NCBI GenBank assembly: GCA_015660995.1
Contig: JACTUC010000002.1
Coordinates: 1 to 43,479 of the forward strand
From: Candidatus Methanomethylicaceae archaeon
Lineage (GTDB): Archaea; Thermoproteota; Methanomethylicia; Methanomethylicales; Methanomethylicaceae
Reading direction: 5' to 3'
Length of the DNA: 43,479 nt
Both the position numbers and the translations under genes were made by a program. Positions 3,586 to 25,035 of this stretch are shown piece after piece. A model generated the notes under the pieces. The model ran no database searches. It was not told the origin of the DNA and saw nothing but the letters and a program-made list of their open reading frames with translations. Every line of letters starts with the position of its first letter. The first letter of the stretch is position 1.

Positions 3586-3629
3586 CAGCATGGAAATATT
3601 TCTAGCCAGCTTGAAATTTGGTGAAACAA

Positions 3630-5207
3630 ATGCTGAAGAAGATACTTGTTGCCAACAGGGGAGAGATCGCACTTCGCGCCATCCGTGCCTGCATGGAGAT
3701 GGGCATTAAAACCGTTGCTGTCTACTCAGAGGCTGACGCCCACGCAAAATTCGTATACTACGCGGATGAAGCGTACCTGATAGGACCTGGCCCTGCTGCC
3801 CAGAGCTACCTCAAGATGGAGAAGATCATCGAGGTGGCCAAGAAGACAGGAGCCGAGGGGATCCACCCGGGCTATGGCTTCCTTGCCCAGAACGCCAAGT
3901 TCGTGAGGATGTGCGACGAGGCTGGCATCGAGTTCATCGGCCCCAAAGCCAACGCTCAGGAGCTCTTAGGTGACAAGCTCGGCGCCAGGAGATCGATGAA
4001 GAAGGCCGGGATACCCATCGTTCCGGGAGCCCTCGACGCAGTGCAGGACGATAAGGACGCCCTGCAGGTAGCCGAGGAGGCGGGGTACCCCGTGATGGTC
4101 AAGCCAGCGGGCGGAGGCGGAGGCATAGGGATGCAGGTCTGCAGATCCAAGGATGACCTACTGGAGGCCATAAAGAAGGCCCAGAGGCTTGCGGCGTCCG
4201 CGTTCTCGAGGCCCGAAGTTTACATAGAGAAGTACGTCGAGAAGCCGAGACACATCGAGATACAGATCCTCGCGGATAAGAAAGGCGACTGCATCTATCT
4301 CGGCGAGAGGGAGTGCTCCATCCAGAGGAGGCACCAGAAGCTCATCGAGGAGGCACCCTCTCCGGTGATGTATCTCGATCCAGGCCTCAGGAAGAGGATG
4401 GGCGAGACCGCGGTTAAGGTCGCAAAGGTCGCCGGCTACGAGAACGCCGGGACCTGCGAGTTCCTCTTCTCTGAGAAGGAGCACGATTTCTACTTCTTGG
4501 AGGTGAATAGCAGGCTCCAGGTCGAACACCCGGTCACCGAGCTGGTGACGGGCATAGACATCGTGAAGGAGCAGTACAAGATTGCATCTGGGGAGCCGCT
4601 CTCCTTCAGGCAGGAGGACATCAAGATAACTGGCCACGCCATGGAGTGCCGCATCAACGCAGAGGATCCGATGAACAACTTCGTCCCCTCGATTGGGCTG
4701 ATCACCAACTACATCGAGCCGGGCGGCATAGGCATTAGGATCGACGGCGGTATTTATGCAGGCTACACGATCCCGCCGTTCTACGACTCCCTTGCAGTCA
4801 AGCTCCTGACCTGGGGCAACAACAGACCCGAGTGCATCGCCAGGATGAGGCGTGCGCTGAACGAGTTCGTGATCGAGGGCATCCAGACAGTCATACCCTT
4901 CCACAAGGTCATGATGGACGACGAGGAGTTCATCAAGGGTCACATCCACACGGAGTTCATACAGGACAGGAACATACTCGACCGTGTGAAGGTGCGTGTT
5001 GACGAAGACGAGGTGTGGAGGAAGGGCAAGGCAAACATCCTAAGCAGGATCGAGGCAAAGCAGGAGAATCCCTCAGGGGCCAGCGTTTCTGACAAGAAGA
5101 CCGTTGCGCTGGCAGCGGCGATCGCGTCCTACATAAATGGCAAGCCCCAGAGGCAGCCCACCAGCAACGGCTGGGTGATCTCTGACAGGGTAAGGAACTC
5201 GAGGTAG
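3630..5207 (+). CDS. accC: Biotin carboxylase subunit of an acyl-CoA carboxylase
   Basis: It uses ATP and bicarbonate to carboxylate biotin on the carrier protein encoded next. The 525-residue chain opens with the biotin-carboxylase signature MLKKILVANRGEIA and carries IHPGYGFLAQNA. It then has the glycine-rich ATP-grasp loop KPAGGGGGIGMQVC, GERECSIQRRHQKLIEEAPS, and EVNSRLQVEHPVTE with the catalytic Glu/Arg region. A C-terminal tail of roughly 60 residues follows the core and may contact the partner subunits. ATG at 3630 was preferred to GTG 3621 because the family begins there and because of the nearby TATA site. The carrier gene starts on the base after its stop. A stand-alone subunit next to a carboxyltransferase argues for acyl-CoA carboxylase rather than pyruvate carboxylase. 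Confidence 0.93.
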   Translation: MLKKILVANRGEIALRAIRACMEMGIKTVAVYSEADAHAKFVYYADEAYLIGPGPAAQSYLKMEKIIEVAKKTGAEGIHPGYGFLAQNAKFVRMCDEAGIEFIGPKANAQELLGDKLGARRSMKKAGIPIVPGALDAVQDDKDALQVAEEAGYPVMVKPAGGGGGIGMQVCRSKDDLLEAIKKAQRLAASAFSRPEVYIEKYVEKPRHIEIQILADKKGDCIYLGERECSIQRRHQKLIEEAPSPVMYLDPGLRKRMGETAVKVAKVAGYENAGTCEFLFSEKEHDFYFLEVNSRLQVEHPVTELVTGIDIVKEQYKIASGEPLSFRQEDIKITGHAMECRINAEDPMNNFVPSIGLITNYIEPGGIGIRIDGGIYAGYTIPPFYDSLAVKLLTWGNNRPECIARMRRALNEFVIEGIQTVIPFHKVMMDDEEFIKGHIHTEFIQDRNILDRVKVRVDEDEVWRKGKANILSRIEAKQENPSGASVSDKKTVALAAAIASYINGKPQRQPTSNGWVISDRVRNSR

Positions 5208-5639
5208 GTGCCATTGTCAAGGACAAGCAAGTTCCAGCTGAGCATCGGCAACACCCAGTACAGCGTGAACATCAGCGAGAAGGCCTACGGGCTATACGAC
5301 GTGAAGGTAAATGATGAGACATTCAAGATAAGCATAGCCGACCTGCTCTCCCCTTCAGTGCAGAGTGCCTCGTCAGTTGCAGCTGCTGCTACGAGCGTAC
5401 CGGCAGAAGGAGGCACGACAGCTGGCGCTGGTCCAGTCAAGGCTGCGATGCCTGGCACAGTCATGACAATAAAGATGAAGATCGGCGACGCCGTAAAGGT
5501 GGGAGACATACTACTTACACTCGAGACGATGAAGATGGAGAACCCCATCAAGTCCAATAGGGCAGGGAAGATCAAGGAGATCAGCGTCCAGCCTGGCAAG
5601 TTCGTCAATGTAGGCGACACGCTGGTGGTAATAGAATAA
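5208..5639 (+). CDS. Biotin carboxyl carrier protein
   Basis: This 143-residue protein carries the covalently bound biotin that shuttles CO2 between the carboxylase and the carboxyltransferase. Residues about 1-48 are a small N-terminal region, residues 49-76 an Ala/Ser/Gly-rich flexible linker, and residues 77-143 a biotinyl/lipoyl-like fold. The biotin site is ETMKMENP with Lys109. The common AMKM motif reads TMKM here, a change seen in several carriers that should not block biotinylation. GTG at 5208 directly abuts the previous stop; TTG at 5214 is an alternative. It is the likely substrate of the biotin ligase at 8711-9664. Confidence 0.92.
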   Translation: MPLSRTSKFQLSIGNTQYSVNISEKAYGLYDVKVNDETFKISIADLLSPSVQSASSVAAAATSVPAEGGTTAGAGPVKAAMPGTVMTIKMKIGDAVKVGDILLTLETMKMENPIKSNRAGKIKEISVQPGKFVNVGDTLVVIE

Positions 5640-5658
5640 GCAGAAGGAGGAGATAAAA

Positions 5659-7233
5659 ATGGCAACACCATCATTATCCGAAAAATTCAAGGAACTTTCT
5701 GATCTGAAGGAGAAGGCCAAGCTAGGCGGAGGAAGCGAGGCAATAGATAAGCAGCACAAGGGAGGGAAGATGACCGCCAGGGAGCGCGTGGACAAGCTCA
5801 TGGATCCTGGCAGCTTCACCGAAGTAGACCAGTTCGTGGTTCACAGGTGCTACGACTTCGATATGCAAAAGAAGAAGGTCCTCGGCGACGCAGTGGTGAC
5901 AGGCTATGGCACCGTCAATGGTAGGCCAGTCTTCGTCTATGCCCAGGACTTCACTTTCGTCGGCGGATCCCTCAGCGAGATGCACGCAAGAAAGATCACC
6001 AAGATCCAGGACATGGCAATGAAGGCAGGTGCTCCGTGTATAGGGCTAAACGACTCAGGCGGCGCGAGGATCCAGGAGGGGATAAACTCACTCTTCGGCT
6101 ATGGTGAGATCTTTTACAGGAACGTCATGGCTTCGGGCGTAATCCCGCAGCTCATTGCGATAATGGGTCCATGCGCGGGTGGCGCAGTATACTCGCCGGC
6201 TCTTGCCGACTTCATCTTCATGGTCAGGAAGACCAGCTACATGTTTATCACGGGACCCAAGGTTGTCAAGGCCGCTATCGGCGAGGATGTAACCTTCGAG
6301 GCTCTCGGCGGTGCGGACTCGCATGCCAAGCTCAGCGGGGTCGCCCACTTCGCGGTCGACAGCGACGAGGAGTGCCTGAGGCAGATGAGAACTCTCCTCA
6401 GCTACCTACCGTCCAACAACATGGACGACCCCCCGATAATGGAATCCGCCGATCCGCCTGACCGCATGGACGAGGAGCTCAACGAGACCGTCCCATTGGA
6501 CCCCAAGAAGCCCTATGACGTTCATGATGTCATAATGCGCGTCTTCGACAGAAGCTCGTTCTTCGAGGTTCAGGCGCTGTTTGCCCCCAACGCGGTCATC
6601 GGATTCGCGAGGCTCAGTGGCAGGTCAGTGGGCGTGATCTGCAACCAGCCTATGGTCTATGCCGGCTGCCTCGACATCGACTCCTCAGACAAGATCGCTA
6701 GGTTCGTGAGAACCTGCGACGCCTTTAACATACCTGTCGTCACATTCGTAGATGTACCTGGGTATCTCCCCGGGACGAAGCAGGAGCACGGCGGAGTGAT
6801 CAGGCACGGCGCCAAAGTCATCTATGCCTACTCTGAGGCTTCAGTGCCAAAGCTCTCCGTGATAATGCGCAAATCCTACGGCGGCGGATACATTGCCATG
6901 TCCAGCAGGCACCTTGGCGCTGATGTCGTCCTCGCGTGGCCCACTGCCGAGATAGCGGTCATGGGACCAGATGGGGCGGTAGAGATTATCCACAGAAACG
7001 AGCTAATGAAGGCAAAGACCCCTGAGGAGACAAAGGAGATCACCAACAAGCTGGTGGCAGAGTACAGGAACAAGTTCGCCAACCCGTACATAGCAGCGCA
7101 GATGGGCTACGTGGACTCGGTCATACTCCCCAAGGAGACACGGCCGATGCTAATCAAGGCACTTGAAACCCTCGTATCGAAGAGAGACATGCAACCCAGG
7201 GCTCCGAAGAGGCACGGGAACATCCCCGCCTAG
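5659..7233 (+). CDS. pccB: Acyl-CoA carboxyltransferase (propionyl-CoA carboxylase beta / MmdA family)
   Basis: It transfers CO2 from carboxybiotin to an acyl-CoA, giving methylmalonyl-CoA from propionyl-CoA and perhaps malonyl-CoA from acetyl-CoA. The 524-residue chain has two crotonase-like halves. The N-terminal half includes NDSGGARIQEGINSLFGYGE, GPCAGGAVYSPAL and FITGPKVVKAAIGEDV. The C-terminal half includes VDVPGYLPGTKQEHGGVIRH, the oxyanion loop KSYGGGYIAMSSRHLGAD and AWPTAEIAVMGPDGAVEI. A strong GGAGGAGAT ribosome site (5646-5654) precedes the ATG by 4 bases. The membrane sodium-pump subunit of methylmalonyl-CoA decarboxylase is not in the operon, so a soluble carboxylase is more likely. 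Substrate choice cannot be settled by eye. Confidence 0.92.
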   Translation: MATPSLSEKFKELSDLKEKAKLGGGSEAIDKQHKGGKMTARERVDKLMDPGSFTEVDQFVVHRCYDFDMQKKKVLGDAVVTGYGTVNGRPVFVYAQDFTFVGGSLSEMHARKITKIQDMAMKAGAPCIGLNDSGGARIQEGINSLFGYGEIFYRNVMASGVIPQLIAIMGPCAGGAVYSPALADFIFMVRKTSYMFITGPKVVKAAIGEDVTFEALGGADSHAKLSGVAHFAVDSDEECLRQMRTLLSYLPSNNMDDPPIMESADPPDRMDEELNETVPLDPKKPYDVHDVIMRVFDRSSFFEVQALFAPNAVIGFARLSGRSVGVICNQPMVYAGCLDIDSSDKIARFVRTCDAFNIPVVTFVDVPGYLPGTKQEHGGVIRHGAKVIYAYSEASVPKLSVIMRKSYGGGYIAMSSRHLGADVVLAWPTAEIAVMGPDGAVEIIHRNELMKAKTPEETKEITNKLVAEYRNKFANPYIAAQMGYVDSVILPKETRPMLIKALETLVSKRDMQPRAPKRHGNIPA

Positions 7234-7451
7234 CTTCCCCCTTTTTTTCATTAAAACCCTATCTCTGTCCGCGTCTTGGTTTTTTCTTAAACTCTTCATT
7301 TCGAAGCACATGATGACCGCTGAAAGCAGCGATTACCTGCCATCAGCTTATGGTAACGATCATTCTTGGAAAAGTTAATAATGCCTTGCACACTGCATAT
7401 TATTCATTATTTACAGGTATAGAATGTTTAGACACAAAGGAGAGATCCACT

Positions 7452-8654
7452 TTGGATAGACCACTCGAAGGTATACGTGTATTGAGCCTGACTGGGGCCC
7501 TCTTCGGCCCCTACTGCGGTTTGATCCTCGCAGACCTTGGCGCTGAAGTAATAAAGGTTGAGCGTCCCGGCTTTGGCGACATGAGCAGAGAATGGGGTCC
7601 GTTCTTCCCCAACGTCCAGGGCCCGGATAAGAGTGGCTACTTCGTGAGCATCCACAGGAACAACAAAGGTATAACACTCAACCTCAAGGACCAGAAGGCG
7701 AAGGAGATTCTCAAGGAGCTAGTAAAGAAGAGCGACGTCCTCATCGAGAACTTCAAGCCAGGCACTATGGACGAATGGGGGATCGGCTACTCTGAGCTGA
7801 AGAAGATCAACCCTAAGCTGATCTACGCTACCGGATCTGGCTTCGGGCAGTATGGTCCCTACAGCAAATGGCCCAGCTACGACATCATCGGCCAGGCAAT
7901 GGGTGGCTTCATGGATCTGAACGGCTGGCCAGATAAGCCCCCGGTGAGGGCCGGCTCATCAATTGGTGACATCATATCAGGTATGTTCCTCGCTATAGGA
8001 ATACTCGCAGCCCTGAGGTACCGCGAGATCAGTGGTCGTGGCCAGATGATTGACGTGGCTCAGGTCGACTCCATGATCGCCGTGCTCGAGAATGCTGTCA
8101 TCCGCTACACGATGGAGCACAAGATCCCTACACGGATTGGGGCAAAGCACCCCGCGATTACTCCCTTCGATATCTTCAAGGCAAAAGATGGCTATGTTGT
8201 CATTGCGGTTGGCAACGACGGGATATGGAAGCGCTTCTGTGCCGCAGTGGGCAAGCCTGAATGGACAAACGATCCTAGATTTGCCAACAACACCTTGAGG
8301 TGCCAGAACGAGGCTGCACTGAAGCTCCTTATAGAGGACTACACTAAGGATAGGACGCGTTGGGACATTGCAAAACTCCTGCTGGCAAACGACGTGCCAT
8401 CTGCGCCCGTCTACAACGTGGGCGAGGCGATCGACGATCCACATGTCAAGGCAAGAGAGATGATAATTGAGTTAGACCAGCCCCAGTACGGGAAGGTGAG
8501 AGTCGCTGGTTGTCCGATCAAGTTCTCAGAGACACCGATAAAGACCTTTTCACCGGCACCGCTTCTTGGGCAGCACACCGAAGAGATCCTCTCAAAGCTG
8601 CTGGGCTACAGCAAAGCCCAGATCGACGACCTGAAAAAAGCAGGTGTGATCTGA
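7452..8654 (+). CDS. CaiB/BaiF family III CoA-transferase
   Basis: Family III enzymes move CoA between carboxylic acids through an aspartyl-CoA anhydride. The 400-residue protein starts MDRPLEGIRVLSLTGALFGP and keeps LADLGAEVIKVERPG, IENFKPGTMDEWGIGY, ATGSGFGQYGP and the catalytic-Asp region GSSIGDIISGMFLAIGILAA. It ends with the expected C-terminal IKFSETPIKTFSPAPLLGQH. The frame is open back to 7350, but TTG at 7452 has an AAAGGAGA ribosome site 7 bases upstream and gives the normal family length. It lies 218 bases after the carboxylase operon, probably with its own promoter. It may load or unload the acid whose CoA ester the carboxylase uses; the substrate is unknown. Confidence 0.9.
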   Translation: MDRPLEGIRVLSLTGALFGPYCGLILADLGAEVIKVERPGFGDMSREWGPFFPNVQGPDKSGYFVSIHRNNKGITLNLKDQKAKEILKELVKKSDVLIENFKPGTMDEWGIGYSELKKINPKLIYATGSGFGQYGPYSKWPSYDIIGQAMGGFMDLNGWPDKPPVRAGSSIGDIISGMFLAIGILAALRYREISGRGQMIDVAQVDSMIAVLENAVIRYTMEHKIPTRIGAKHPAITPFDIFKAKDGYVVIAVGNDGIWKRFCAAVGKPEWTNDPRFANNTLRCQNEAALKLLIEDYTKDRTRWDIAKLLLANDVPSAPVYNVGEAIDDPHVKAREMIIELDQPQYGKVRVAGCPIKFSETPIKTFSPAPLLGQHTEEILSKLLGYSKAQIDDLKKAGVI

Positions 8655-19162: not shown

Positions 19163-19341
19163 AGACCTAACCTCTGAGACACGTCGTATTTAGCAATAAT
19201 CACTATTTAATATCGTTTTCTGGTTAAAAAATTACTCCAGTTAATTTTCTACAAGCGCTGATGCTGCCATCGGTCTAAAATTAGGATGAATTGCGGAAGC
19301 TCTTCGACCCGCCATCTAGCTCTGGACTGGGTAGCGTCTGA

Positions 19342-19566
19342 TCAGACCGTCTTGATGTACAGGATATTATTGCCCCTTACCAGAATCTTGCCGTACTTGG
19401 CAACGGCATTTCCATCGTCGACCGCCTCGATCGCGTCGGTAAGGATCAGGTTCATCGTCGAGTCGTATTTTACAAGGTCGCCAATATATTCATGGCCATC
19501 CTTCAGCTTCACTAATATCTGGTTGTGCAAAGACTTGTTCAGCAGTCTTATTGGCTCACTCGGCAT
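19342..19566 (-). CDS. Lsm (Sm-like) RNA-binding protein
   Basis: Archaeal Lsm proteins form heptameric rings that bind U-rich RNA and act in RNA processing. The 74-residue product contains the Sm1 motif (NQILVKLKDGHEYIGDLVKYD, including the central Asp-Met-Asn-type position as STMNLIL) and the Sm2-like KILVRGNNILYI. The frame is open upstream to 19644. ATG at 19566 (MPSEPIRLLNKSL) matches the family start and sits 11-13 bases after the transcript start predicted from the TATA box at 19600-19610. The stop overlaps a perfect palindrome, GTCTGATCAGAC. Confidence 0.88.
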   Translation of the reverse strand: MPSEPIRLLNKSLHNQILVKLKDGHEYIGDLVKYDSTMNLILTDAIEAVDDGNAVAKYGKILVRGNNILYIKTV

Positions 19567-19599
19567 AAAATAAACACCATTTTTATGACGGCGTCCTTT

Positions 19600-20525: not shown

Positions 20526-20566
20526 TGTGCGCTGGAATTTACGATTAACCGTCCGGAGATATTAAT

Positions 20567-23065
20567 TTGGGCGGCTACCTCAACAAAATCCTACGCGTCA
20601 ACCTTTCCTCTAACGAGCTCTCAGTTGAGGGCATCAACTGGGATACCGCTGCGGATTTCGTGGGCGGTAGAGGTTATGGCGCGAAGATCCTCAGCGATGA
20701 ACTTCCAGTTGGGATCGATCCCCTTAGCCCCCAGAACAAGCTCATAATAATGACCGGTCCGCTCACTGGAACTGCTGCGCCCACGTCAGGAAGGTTCTCC
20801 GTATCGACGAAGTCGCCCGCAACCGGTACAGTGCTCGACGCCAACAGCGGAGGCTACTTTGGCACAGAGCTGAAGAGGGCAGGCTTCGATGGCATAATCA
20901 TAGAGGGGAGGAGCGAGACACCCGTGTACCTCTCCATCATCCACGGGAATGCAGAGATCAGAGACGCCTCAGCCCTTTGGGGCCGCGACGTTTTTGAGAC
21001 CGAGGACCGCCTCAAACAGATAGTAGGCGATCCCCTCGCAAGGGTCGCGTGCATAGGCCCGGCCGGCGAGCGCCTGGTGAAGATAGCAGCCATAATGAAC
21101 GAGAAGCACCGTACGGCCGCCAGGGGCGGTGTCGGCGCAGTCATGGGGTCCAAGAAGCTGAAGGCCATCGTCGTCCGCGGAAAAGGTGAGATCCCGCTCT
21201 CGAACCCCTACGCCTTCATGAAGGAAGTCAAGCAGACCCTGAGCGTGCTCAGGGGGCATCCACTGACTGGGGATAGTCTTGGGCGGTACGGGACCGCAGT
21301 TCTTGTGCACTCGATAAACAAGGCAGGCGTCTTCCCAGTAAGGAACTACTCGACTGGCTTCTTCGAGGATGCCGAGGAGGTGAGCGGCGAGAACCTGTCG
21401 AAGACGATCCTAAAGGGGAAGAAGGGGTGCTACGCGTGCCCAATCATGTGCGGCAGGATTACCCAGATAAAGACCCCGTCTGGTCAGATCCTCGACACCG
21501 AAGGTCCCGAGTACGAGAGCCTCTGGGCGCTTGGGCCAAACTGTGGCATAAAAGACCTCAGCGCGATCGCTTATGCCAACGACCTCTGCAACAAGCTCGG
21601 CGTAGATACCATCTCGATGGGGCAGGCTGTGGGATTTCTCATGGCGTGCGCTGAGAATGGTAAGGTAAAGCCGGAGGATATTGGCCTGTCCCTCAACTGG
21701 GGCAATGCCGAGACGCTGTTCAAGATAATTGAGATGACCGCAAAGAGGGAAGGGATAGGCGATCTGCTTGCAGAGGGCACAAAGAGGGCGGCTGCAAAGC
21801 TCGGAGCTGAGGACCTCGCAATGCACGTGAAGGGTCTCGAGCTACCTGCGTACGACCCAAGAGGGCTCAAGGGCCAGGCGCTCTCCTTTGCCACCTCCAA
21901 TAGAGGAGGATGCCACCTCAGGGCTTTCATGGTCCCGGCAGAGGTACTAAGCACCCCGAGGTACCTGAACCCCAATTCCTACGACGACAAGGCCGCCCTG
22001 GTCAAGGTGATGCAGGATGTCTTCGCGGTGCTGGACTCCTTGGTGCTCTGCAAGTATACGACCCTGGCTCTCTTCTCCACCCTTGCGTTTGAGCCGGATT
22101 CCTATGCCAGACTGCTCACAACAGCGACCGGCTTCTACGTTGACCGCGAAGAGTTCTACAAGATTGGCGAGAGGATATACAATGTCGAGCGCTTATTCAA
22201 CGCCCGGGAGGGCTTCAGCAGGAAAGACGACTACCTGCCCAAGCGCTTCCTCGAGATCGGCATGCCAGATGGCCCTGCGAAGGGCCAGAAAGTCGACATG
22301 GATAGGTTATTAAACGAGTATTATGCAGTGAGAGGTTGGGATTATAACGGCATACCTACCGACAGGAGGGTAACCAAGCTGGGTCTGAAGCCTTTGTATG
22401 AGGGTCCAAAACTCCAGGTCGCCATCGATGAGAGATACCTGAAAGACGCCCTCCCTATTGCCGAGGGAGCCTACAGAGGCGGCGCGGAGATCATCGAGGC
22501 AGGAACGCCCCTCGTGAAGTCGGAGGGTCTGAGGGTGGTCAAAGAATTCAGAAGGGTATGTCCCAATGCCTCCATTTTAGCAGATCTCAAGACATTCGAT
22601 ACTGGCTGGCTCGAGACCGAGCTAGCGGTCGAGAATGGGGCAGATATAGTAACCGTCATGGGCGCCACCGACGACTATACAATCAAAGACGCCGTGGGCG
22701 CGGCGCGTAAATACGGCGTGAAAGTAATGGTCGACCTGATGAACCTCAAGGATCCGCTGGCAAGAGCTATAGAGGTCGAGAAGTTGGGTGTCGACATCGT
22801 CTGCATGCACGTTGGCATCAGCGCTCAGGCAAGAGAGAGGGAGATCGACCAGAAGGTCGCGCTGGTGGAGAACCTGGTAAAGTCCGTTAAAGTGACCGTG
22901 GCTGTTGCAGGAGGGATAAAACTCGAGGTCATCCCCCAGATGGTCAGGGCAGGCGCTAGCCAACTTATTGTTGGGGGCGCCATTACCAAGTCTGCCAGCC
23001 CTGAAGAAGCAACAAAAAGGTTCGTCGATCTTATCAGGACAACGTGGAAAGGCACGAAGGCCTAA
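20567..23065 (+). CDS. Fusion: tungsten aldehyde:ferredoxin oxidoreductase + 3-hexulose-6-phosphate synthase
   Basis: One uninterrupted 832-residue frame joins two enzymes. Residues 1 to about 607 form a complete AOR-family protein: it starts GGYLNKILRVNLSS and has the pterin-binding GRGYGAKIL and FSVSTKSPATG. The cluster-ligand cysteines are Cys288, Cys291, Cys295 and Cys495 (GCYACPIMCG and LVLCKY), nearly the numbering I recall for Pyrococcus AOR. It ends with the usual EYYAVRGWDYNGIPTDR. After a short linker, residues 614-832 form an HPS domain of the OMP-decarboxylase superfamily. It has VAID, the catalytic D673-x-K675-xx-D678 in ADLKTFDTG, CMHVG, and the phosphate-binding VAGGIK and IVGGAIT. 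Inference: HPS cleaves hexulose 6-phosphate to ribulose 5-phosphate and formaldehyde, and AOR oxidises the aldehyde to formate, reducing ferredoxin. The start is TTG with GGAGAT. The aldehyde substrate of the AOR part is not proven. Confidence 0.92.
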   Translation: MGGYLNKILRVNLSSNELSVEGINWDTAADFVGGRGYGAKILSDELPVGIDPLSPQNKLIIMTGPLTGTAAPTSGRFSVSTKSPATGTVLDANSGGYFGTELKRAGFDGIIIEGRSETPVYLSIIHGNAEIRDASALWGRDVFETEDRLKQIVGDPLARVACIGPAGERLVKIAAIMNEKHRTAARGGVGAVMGSKKLKAIVVRGKGEIPLSNPYAFMKEVKQTLSVLRGHPLTGDSLGRYGTAVLVHSINKAGVFPVRNYSTGFFEDAEEVSGENLSKTILKGKKGCYACPIMCGRITQIKTPSGQILDTEGPEYESLWALGPNCGIKDLSAIAYANDLCNKLGVDTISMGQAVGFLMACAENGKVKPEDIGLSLNWGNAETLFKIIEMTAKREGIGDLLAEGTKRAAAKLGAEDLAMHVKGLELPAYDPRGLKGQALSFATSNRGGCHLRAFMVPAEVLSTPRYLNPNSYDDKAALVKVMQDVFAVLDSLVLCKYTTLALFSTLAFEPDSYARLLTTATGFYVDREEFYKIGERIYNVERLFNAREGFSRKDDYLPKRFLEIGMPDGPAKGQKVDMDRLLNEYYAVRGWDYNGIPTDRRVTKLGLKPLYEGPKLQVAIDERYLKDALPIAEGAYRGGAEIIEAGTPLVKSEGLRVVKEFRRVCPNASILADLKTFDTGWLETELAVENGADIVTVMGATDDYTIKDAVGAARKYGVKVMVDLMNLKDPLARAIEVEKLGVDIVCMHVGISAQAREREIDQKVALVENLVKSVKVTVAVAGGIKLEVIPQMVRAGASQLIVGGAITKSASPEEATKRFVDLIRTTWKGTKA

Positions 23066-24487: not shown

Positions 24488-24543
24488 CCATCACATCGGA
24501 GATTTCATAAGTCTGAGGTGGGAAATAAGAATGCCGTGTATTG

Positions 24544-25035
24544 ATGTTGTCTTCCTATGATCAGCTCCACAAGTTCACATCCGAGTCCACTCAGATCGTG
24601 CGGTACGTCTACTTCCGGAGCTTTGCCAGGTCCGACCAGGACATGGTTCCGCTAAAAACAAAGGTAATCCCTTTGGGCGAGGTGGGGCGCGGATTCTTCG
24701 ACGCGCTTAGGGGAGTAATCACTGCCTCAAAGGAGAGGGACAGGAGCGCGCTCTTCGTCAAGCTCTACAGGAACGGCGATCCCAAAGACATCATCGCACT
24801 CTCGGAAAAGTTTAAGCAGGAGGCTTACAGGCCGACGACTGACGAGTACGAGCGTGGCTTCCTCGTTGCATGGGAGATAGCTCTGAAGACCTTGGCCGAG
24901 CTCAAGGCGAACTACCCCGAATATCCGCTGAAAGACGAGCAGCCTGCCAGAACCCAGCGTGCAGAGGCAGAGGACGCTGAGTACGAAATAAAACCCAGGA
25001 AGAAGTCTAAGGTAAGACAGGCGACAGCAGGTTGA
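24544..25035 (+). CDS. Hypothetical protein with charged tail
   Basis: The 163-residue product is not recognised. It looks soluble and mostly alpha/beta: residues about 1-60 contain VRYVYFRSF and TKVIPLGEVGRGFFDALRGV, and residues about 75-120 are helical (IIALSEKFKQEA, YERGFLVAWEIALKTLAEL). The last 35 residues are first acidic and then Lys/Arg-rich (RKKSKVRQ), perhaps disordered and able to bind nucleic acid. ATG 24544 is chosen; TTG 24541 is in frame. The gene diverges from fumA by 56 bases and its 3' end overlaps the convergent membrane-protein gene by 29 bases. Confidence 0.7.
   Translation: MLSSYDQLHKFTSESTQIVRYVYFRSFARSDQDMVPLKTKVIPLGEVGRGFFDALRGVITASKERDRSALFVKLYRNGDPKDIIALSEKFKQEAYRPTTDEYERGFLVAWEIALKTLAELKANYPEYPLKDEQPARTQRAEAEDAEYEIKPRKKSKVRQATAG

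Follow-up and report, generated by a model that had tools for sequence, protein, structure and literature searches.

Why should an AOR-family enzyme be joined in frame to a 3-hexulose-6-phosphate synthase (HPS)? This question is raised by a single gene in a 43,479-nucleotide stretch of archaeal DNA (hereafter, the window), which lies on contig C24 of a genome of 1.63 Mb and 98% completeness. AOR and HPS are each known, and their joining in one protein seems to be undescribed: we found no published AOR-HPS fusion in the open-licence literature, which agrees with a preliminary description of this DNA that likewise knew of none.

The gene is a single stop-free frame on the plus strand (20567-23065) encoding 832 amino acids, in which a complete AOR (residues 1-607) is followed, after a linker of about six residues, by a complete HPS (residues 614-832). 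The preliminary description had claimed just this arrangement, and the uninterrupted frame and its Pfam domains bear it out. The features of the locus are as follows:

20567 to 23065, plus strand: AOR-HPS gene, stop codon included; TTG start, with equal start and length in relatives.
20555 to 20559, plus strand: GGAGA, a Shine-Dalgarno-like motif seen in the sequence 7 bases 5' of the TTG start.
20582 to 21181, plus strand: AFOR_N domain, residues 6-205 (Pfam PF02730, 6e-82, model positions 1-198 of 199).
21230 to 22387, plus strand: AFOR_C domain, residues 222-607 (Pfam PF01314, 8e-147, model positions 4-385 of 385).
21428 to 21451, plus strand: cluster cysteines C288, C291 and C295 (CxxCxxxC), from the alignment with 1AOR; invariant in the fusions.
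22049 to 22051, plus strand: fourth cluster cysteine, C495, aligned with C494 of 1AOR; invariant.
22073 to 22090, plus strand: six-residue insertion, residues 503-508, found in fused AORs and a gap in nearly all unfused AORs.
22388 to 22405, plus strand: linker, residues 608-613, from the gap between the Pfam limits and the sequence.
22406 to 23062, plus strand: HPS domain, residues 614-832 (PF00215, TIGR03128, and fold matches to 9LJ9 and 3AJX).
22583 to 22600, plus strand: HPS active-site motif D673-x-K675-x-x-D678, aligned to 3AJX; invariant.

The TTG start is supported by the GGAGA motif upstream of it and by homologues that begin at the same residue. We saw no operon clues at the locus, where the fusion gene has a divergently oriented methyltransferase gene on one side and a convergent gene for fumarase on the other. 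An AlphaFold model of the fusion had a mean pLDDT of 72.8, with residues 420-495 below 50 and the AOR half at low confidence.

Relatives with names in GTDB contigs belong to Ca. Methanomethylicia (Methanomethyliaceae, Methanosuratincola; formerly Verstraetearchaeota) and, at a greater distance, to Nezhaarchaeota. The window's family (f1, Ca. Methanomethylicia, relatives of methane producers) is represented by 22 genomes, of which 17 have the same fusion; 16 copies are full length and 76-84% identical to that of the window, and one (G015) is split across two contigs. Among the five f1 genomes in which we found no fusion, three are 59-77% complete and yielded no HPS, and G002 and G013 have only an unfused HPS. 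Fusions at about 60% identity are present in f6 (Nezhaarchaeota and kin) and f3, a divergent copy is borne by G022 (f2), and a phylum-wide HPS search covering 398 genomes added f13, f15, f28, and f40, with the AOR and HPS halves each 53-60% identical. In total, about 30 genomes from eight family-level groups carry the fusion, in a sample enriched for the window's kin. The preliminary description had staked its reading on conservation in relatives, and this conservation was found both within f1 and in other groups. An assembly join or a frameshift can be ruled out, because many genomes assembled independently of one another contain the full-length, unbroken fusion; this holds also for the junction at 22390-22406, where a join would have counted against the preliminary reading.

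In separate trees for the two halves, AOR and HPS, the fused sequences fall together with the same main branching, and both trees place the copy of an unplaced archaeon (L053) as the earliest-branching fusion. The sole non-fusion row within the fused HPS clade, L029, starts at a contig end. Our first trees hinted at a second, independent fusion in G022, which we then rejected on gene order, the insertion, and the AOR-half clade. The gene order of G022 is that of f1 (AOR-HPS, fumarase pair, unknown gene, NFACT, CBS, CBS), its fusion carries the fusion-specific six-residue insertion, and the AOR halves form one clade (99% SH-aLRT) after removal of one long branch. A common HPS clade of the fusions including G022 was also not rejected (p 0.6). 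Given the congruent trees of both halves, the shared insertion, and the gene order in G022, a single origin of the fusion is the simplest reading. Between f1 members, dN was 0.08-0.16 and dS exceeded 1.3 in both halves (dS is near saturation and the ratios are rough), and with this low dN relative to dS both halves are under purifying selection.

Other genes of the window were also noted. A 164-residue frame (24541-25035, plus strand) with no Pfam or NCBIfam match keeps a constant position between the fumarase pair and NFACT, at 48-59% identity in f1 and 37% in G022. A second frame, of 95 residues (19286-19573, plus strand) and without a Pfam match, adjoins an S-adenosylmethionine synthetase gene and is 61-79% identical in f1. 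At several f6 and f3 loci (L031, L032, L047, L048, L049, and L051), a convergent CTP synthase gene directly follows AOR-HPS; the CTP synthase of the window lies about 5 kb upstream. Consecutive genes for a biotin carboxylase, a carboxyl transferase, and a class III CoA-transferase (3618-8654, plus strand) suggest an acyl-CoA carboxylase pathway.

We compared the C-terminal half with HPS and with its relatives of other function. Against TIGR03128, the curated NCBI model for HPS (cut-off 200 bits), the domain alone scored 203 bits and the full protein 198.5, and the Pfam OMPdecase/HUMPS match spans residues 614-819 (2e-32). Residues D673, K675, and D678, together with E644, D723, and H748, are invariant over the 21 aligned fusions, so the D-x-K-x-x-D site of the preliminary description stands. 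The KGPDC mutations E112D/R139V/T169A, which favor HPS activity (entry 1XBX), served as reference positions; KGPDC positions 112, 139, and 169 correspond to D723, I751, and A781 in the fusion, which is the HPS pattern. Assignment as a KGPDC or an OMP decarboxylase was rejected on this residue pattern and on scores below the curated cut-offs (PRK13306, 96 bits of 250; PRK13813, 50 of 208; pyrF, 33 of 92). With a curated score, motif, and residues all of the HPS type, the C-terminal half is predicted to be an HPS.

In the N-terminal half, the cysteines at 288, 291, 295, and 495, proposed earlier as ligands, match C288, C291, C295, and C494 of Pyrococcus furiosus AOR (1AOR). E317 and H450 align with E313 and H448 of 1AOR, which we take to be active-site residues, and both are invariant together with the four cysteines in the alignment of 21 fusions. 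Full-length domains, cluster cysteines, and these E/H residues place this half in the AOR family, and tungsten, a 4Fe-4S cluster, and ferredoxin-linked oxidation would be predicted for it. The preliminary description had also cited the formaldehyde:ferredoxin oxidoreductase (FOR) of Pyrococcus as a member of the AOR family, but the fused protein is not closest to it: the AOR half scores 615 bits against 1AOR and 365 bits against P. furiosus FOR (1B25), and, judged by sequence, it is of the AOR type. It has its domains, cluster cysteines, and E313/H448 equivalents in common with 1AOR and kin (9MQX and 9G7J), at about 47-49% identity, but those enzymes have neither an HPS domain nor the six-residue insertion of the fused AORs. 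This insertion sits shortly after the fourth cluster cysteine, where nearly all of the 21 unfused AORs compared, including 1AOR and 9MQX, have a gap, and it could help to form the pocket or to hold the HPS domain in place. The window's own genome contains at least four further AOR-family genes, none of them fused to HPS, that are 30-47% identical to the fused AOR (G000:C24:131160-132986, G000:C24:90095-91786, G000:C28:8960-10783, and G000:C9:66341-68107).

P. furiosus AOR accepts many aldehydes. The AOR half, which falls in this broad-specificity type and not in the FOR type, might then act on another aldehyde (e.g., glyceraldehyde or one derived from amino acids), with the fusion providing stability, assembly, or co-expression instead of channelling, and HPS is indeed also joined to domains of unknown use (HPS-RraA/MenG; PMC5241800). 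We consider this explanation unlikely, since it leaves as coincidence that a formaldehyde-releasing lyase and an aldehyde oxidase are joined so widely where the usual sink is absent, and since the AORs that are fused make up a separate clade marked by an insertion of its own.

The gene content of f1 bears on the direction in which such an enzyme would run. PHI, which the preliminary description had listed for inspection, is present in every fusion-bearing f1 genome, and in the window's own genome it is a gene separate from the fusion (G000:C1:84303-84818). The fusion is the only recognizable HPS in 16 of these 17 genomes, the exception being that of the window. The unfused HPS of this genome (G000:C6:20861-21460; L001, L159) belongs to a different clade, at about 37% identity, and lies near the genes for methylenetetrahydrofolate reductase and the DUF5981 partner of that enzyme; the HPS most closely related to it comes from G002, a genome in which we found no fusion. 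Fae and Mch are each absent from all 22 f1 genomes (0/22), and another outlet for formaldehyde would therefore be needed, which fits the view of the preliminary description that the fusion serves to cope with formaldehyde. Among the 398 genomes, carriers of AOR-HPS have no Fae, except in f6, where Fae stands alone in frames of 174-195 residues, and none of the carriers has a Fae frame of Fae-HPS size; most other Fae genes are frames of 400-550 residues, the size of Fae-HPS, and L119, L178, and L179 were confirmed to contain HPS.

The remaining genes that had been named for inspection gave a mixed picture. The N-terminal part of transketolase is encoded in some f1 genomes, including the window's own, and is missing from several (e.g., G004, G005, G006, and G010). 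As for formate-using genes, the PurP family is present as tandem pairs in 22/22 f1 genomes, and formate-THF ligase (FTHFS) is present in none (0/22) and absent also from f2, f3, and f6. PurP activity has been shown for not every PurP-like protein (PMC3261824). PF00384 (formate dehydrogenase, formylmethanofuran dehydrogenase) is missing from nine f1 genomes, namely the window's own and eight more (some of these incomplete), and present in the remaining f1 genomes.

RuMP enzymes detoxify formaldehyde in bacteria, and this has been proposed in Brockarchaeota (PMC8065059). By analogy, the HPS half might trap formaldehyde of external origin or from methyl metabolism in the synthetic direction, with the AOR half clearing the rest. 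That the fusion serves such a purpose appears most improbable: it is the sole HPS in most f1 genomes, several of which are without transketolase, so the reverse direction would be needed for pentose, and the fusion gene stands alone, outside any stress operon.

Starting from the fusion itself, its conserved active-site residues, its single origin, and its gene context, we infer which substrate the AOR half takes, in which direction the flux runs, channelling, and the use of formate along the following lines. The preliminary description had proposed oxidation of formaldehyde to formate with reduction of ferredoxin and channelling, and our results support that proposal in part. The protein is probably a bifunctional reverse ribulose-monophosphate enzyme, in which the HPS half would free formaldehyde and the AOR half would oxidize it to formate. 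PHI would convert fructose 6-phosphate to hexulose 6-phosphate, the HPS half would cleave this to ribulose 5-phosphate and formaldehyde, and the tungsten AOR half would oxidize the formaldehyde to formate, passing two electrons to ferredoxin. Because the potential of the formate/formaldehyde couple is very low (PMC7143981), this oxidation would run downhill and draw the unfavorable cleavage forward, saving the electrons and stopping toxic formaldehyde from accumulating. In lineages that lack the H4MPT sink for formaldehyde, AOR-HPS would thereby stand in for Fae or Fae-HPS. This reading draws support from the retention of the fusion and its catalytic residues in divergent genomes, the congruent trees, and the low dN relative to dS, as well as from a gene context in which the fusion is mostly the sole HPS, PHI is always there, Fae and Mch are lacking, and transketolase has gaps. 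Counted against it are the AOR-type half, with the many aldehydes taken by P. furiosus AOR, the unfused HPS of the window's own genome (L001) and of G002 and G013, the stand-alone Fae that Nezhaarchaeal (f6) genomes retain beside the fusion, the PF00384 protein of several f1 genomes, and the AlphaFold model, with its low-confidence AOR half, in which the two active sites are not seen to face each other.

Both the AOR and the HPS reactions are reversible. Run in the opposite direction, the AOR half would reduce formate with low-potential ferredoxin and the HPS half would fix the resulting formaldehyde onto ribulose 5-phosphate. HPS/PHI is reversible (PMC5241800), Desulfurococcus has been proposed to follow a formate-formaldehyde-RuMP route with a different set of enzymes (PMC7143981), and a fusion would shield the reactive intermediate. 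Formate assimilation of this kind is nevertheless highly unlikely in our judgment, since formate reduction is uphill (PMC7143981), formate is not an energy source for the isolate Methanosuratincola petrocarbonis (PMC12244365), transketolase, which is required to regenerate ribulose 5-phosphate, is missing from several fusion genomes, and the window's own genome has no FDH-type enzyme.

If the enzyme instead releases formate, as we favor, then this product may have a use. Many archaea make purines with PurT and PurP, two enzymes that depend on formate (PMC3261824, PMC10025317), and the source of formate for purines is an open question where formate dehydrogenase is lacking (PMC10025317, PMC3261824). 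Cells of f1 probably need formate for purine building, and formate from AOR-HPS could perhaps enter formate-dependent purine synthesis (PurP; PurT/PurP) there. PurP in all f1 genomes, the absence of PF00384 from the window's own genome, and the lack of FTHFS support this use. Each pentose comes with the release of one C1 unit. Two formates go into a purine if PurT and PurP make it, and none into a pyrimidine. For an even nucleotide mix, the demand would therefore be about one formate per ribose, the amount that the enzyme would produce. We tentatively suggest that one enzyme might yield ribulose 5-phosphate and formate together and be the main source of free formate for purines in archaea that have neither formate dehydrogenase nor an H4MPT sink for formaldehyde.

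HPS is already known in fusions with three other partners, namely PHI, Fae, and a MenG/RraA-like domain (PMC5241800; PMC11291895). Fae-HPS (NF009833) is a close parallel in layout, with HPS likewise C-terminal to an enzyme that would take the released formaldehyde in archaeal reverse RuMP, and it has been read as formaldehyde capture by the fusion partner (PMC5241800). In Fae-HPS, however, Fae binds formaldehyde to H4MPT, whereas in AOR-HPS a tungsten oxidoreductase would oxidize it, and the HPS domains of the two fusions branch in different parts of the HPS tree. No Fae domain was found by Pfam in the AOR-HPS protein, and none in its own genome, so it is not Fae-HPS. The HPS-PHI fusion (9LJ9, Thermococcus enzymes; NF041755) has an HPS domain about 50% identical to ours and also serves reverse RuMP as a pentose source, but its partner is the isomerase on the other side of HPS, which is a separate gene in the AOR-HPS genome. 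HPS-RraA/MenG-like (NF005442), with a C-terminal partner of unknown role, is another HPS fusion and is present in genomes of f6 and f3 that also carry AOR-HPS. At f6/f3 loci L123 and L128-L131, extra HPS domains lie in frames of 430-455 residues, that of L123 being an HPS-RraA-like fusion. For Culexarchaeia (PMC9723716) and Brockarchaeota (PMC8065059), conversion of formaldehyde to formate by AOR and RuMP enzymes that are separate proteins has been proposed; the proposed chemistry is the same, but the enzymes are unlinked, and in Culexarchaeia formate passes to formate-THF ligase (PMC9723716), an enzyme absent from f1.

AOR-HPS is thus a new combination of domains that is real, conserved, and of single origin, and its metabolic rationale is well supported. 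Archaea that run RuMP backwards for ribose free one formaldehyde per pentose, and the conserved fusion offers one testable answer both to the fate of this formaldehyde without a Fae/H4MPT pathway and to the source of free formate without formate dehydrogenase, in a lineage that includes a cultured member, Methanosuratincola. The joining of a tungsten enzyme to a carbon-carbon lyase would put tungsten enzymes in central biosynthesis and not in fermentation, and, if true, such a formate supply for purines would be of wider interest.
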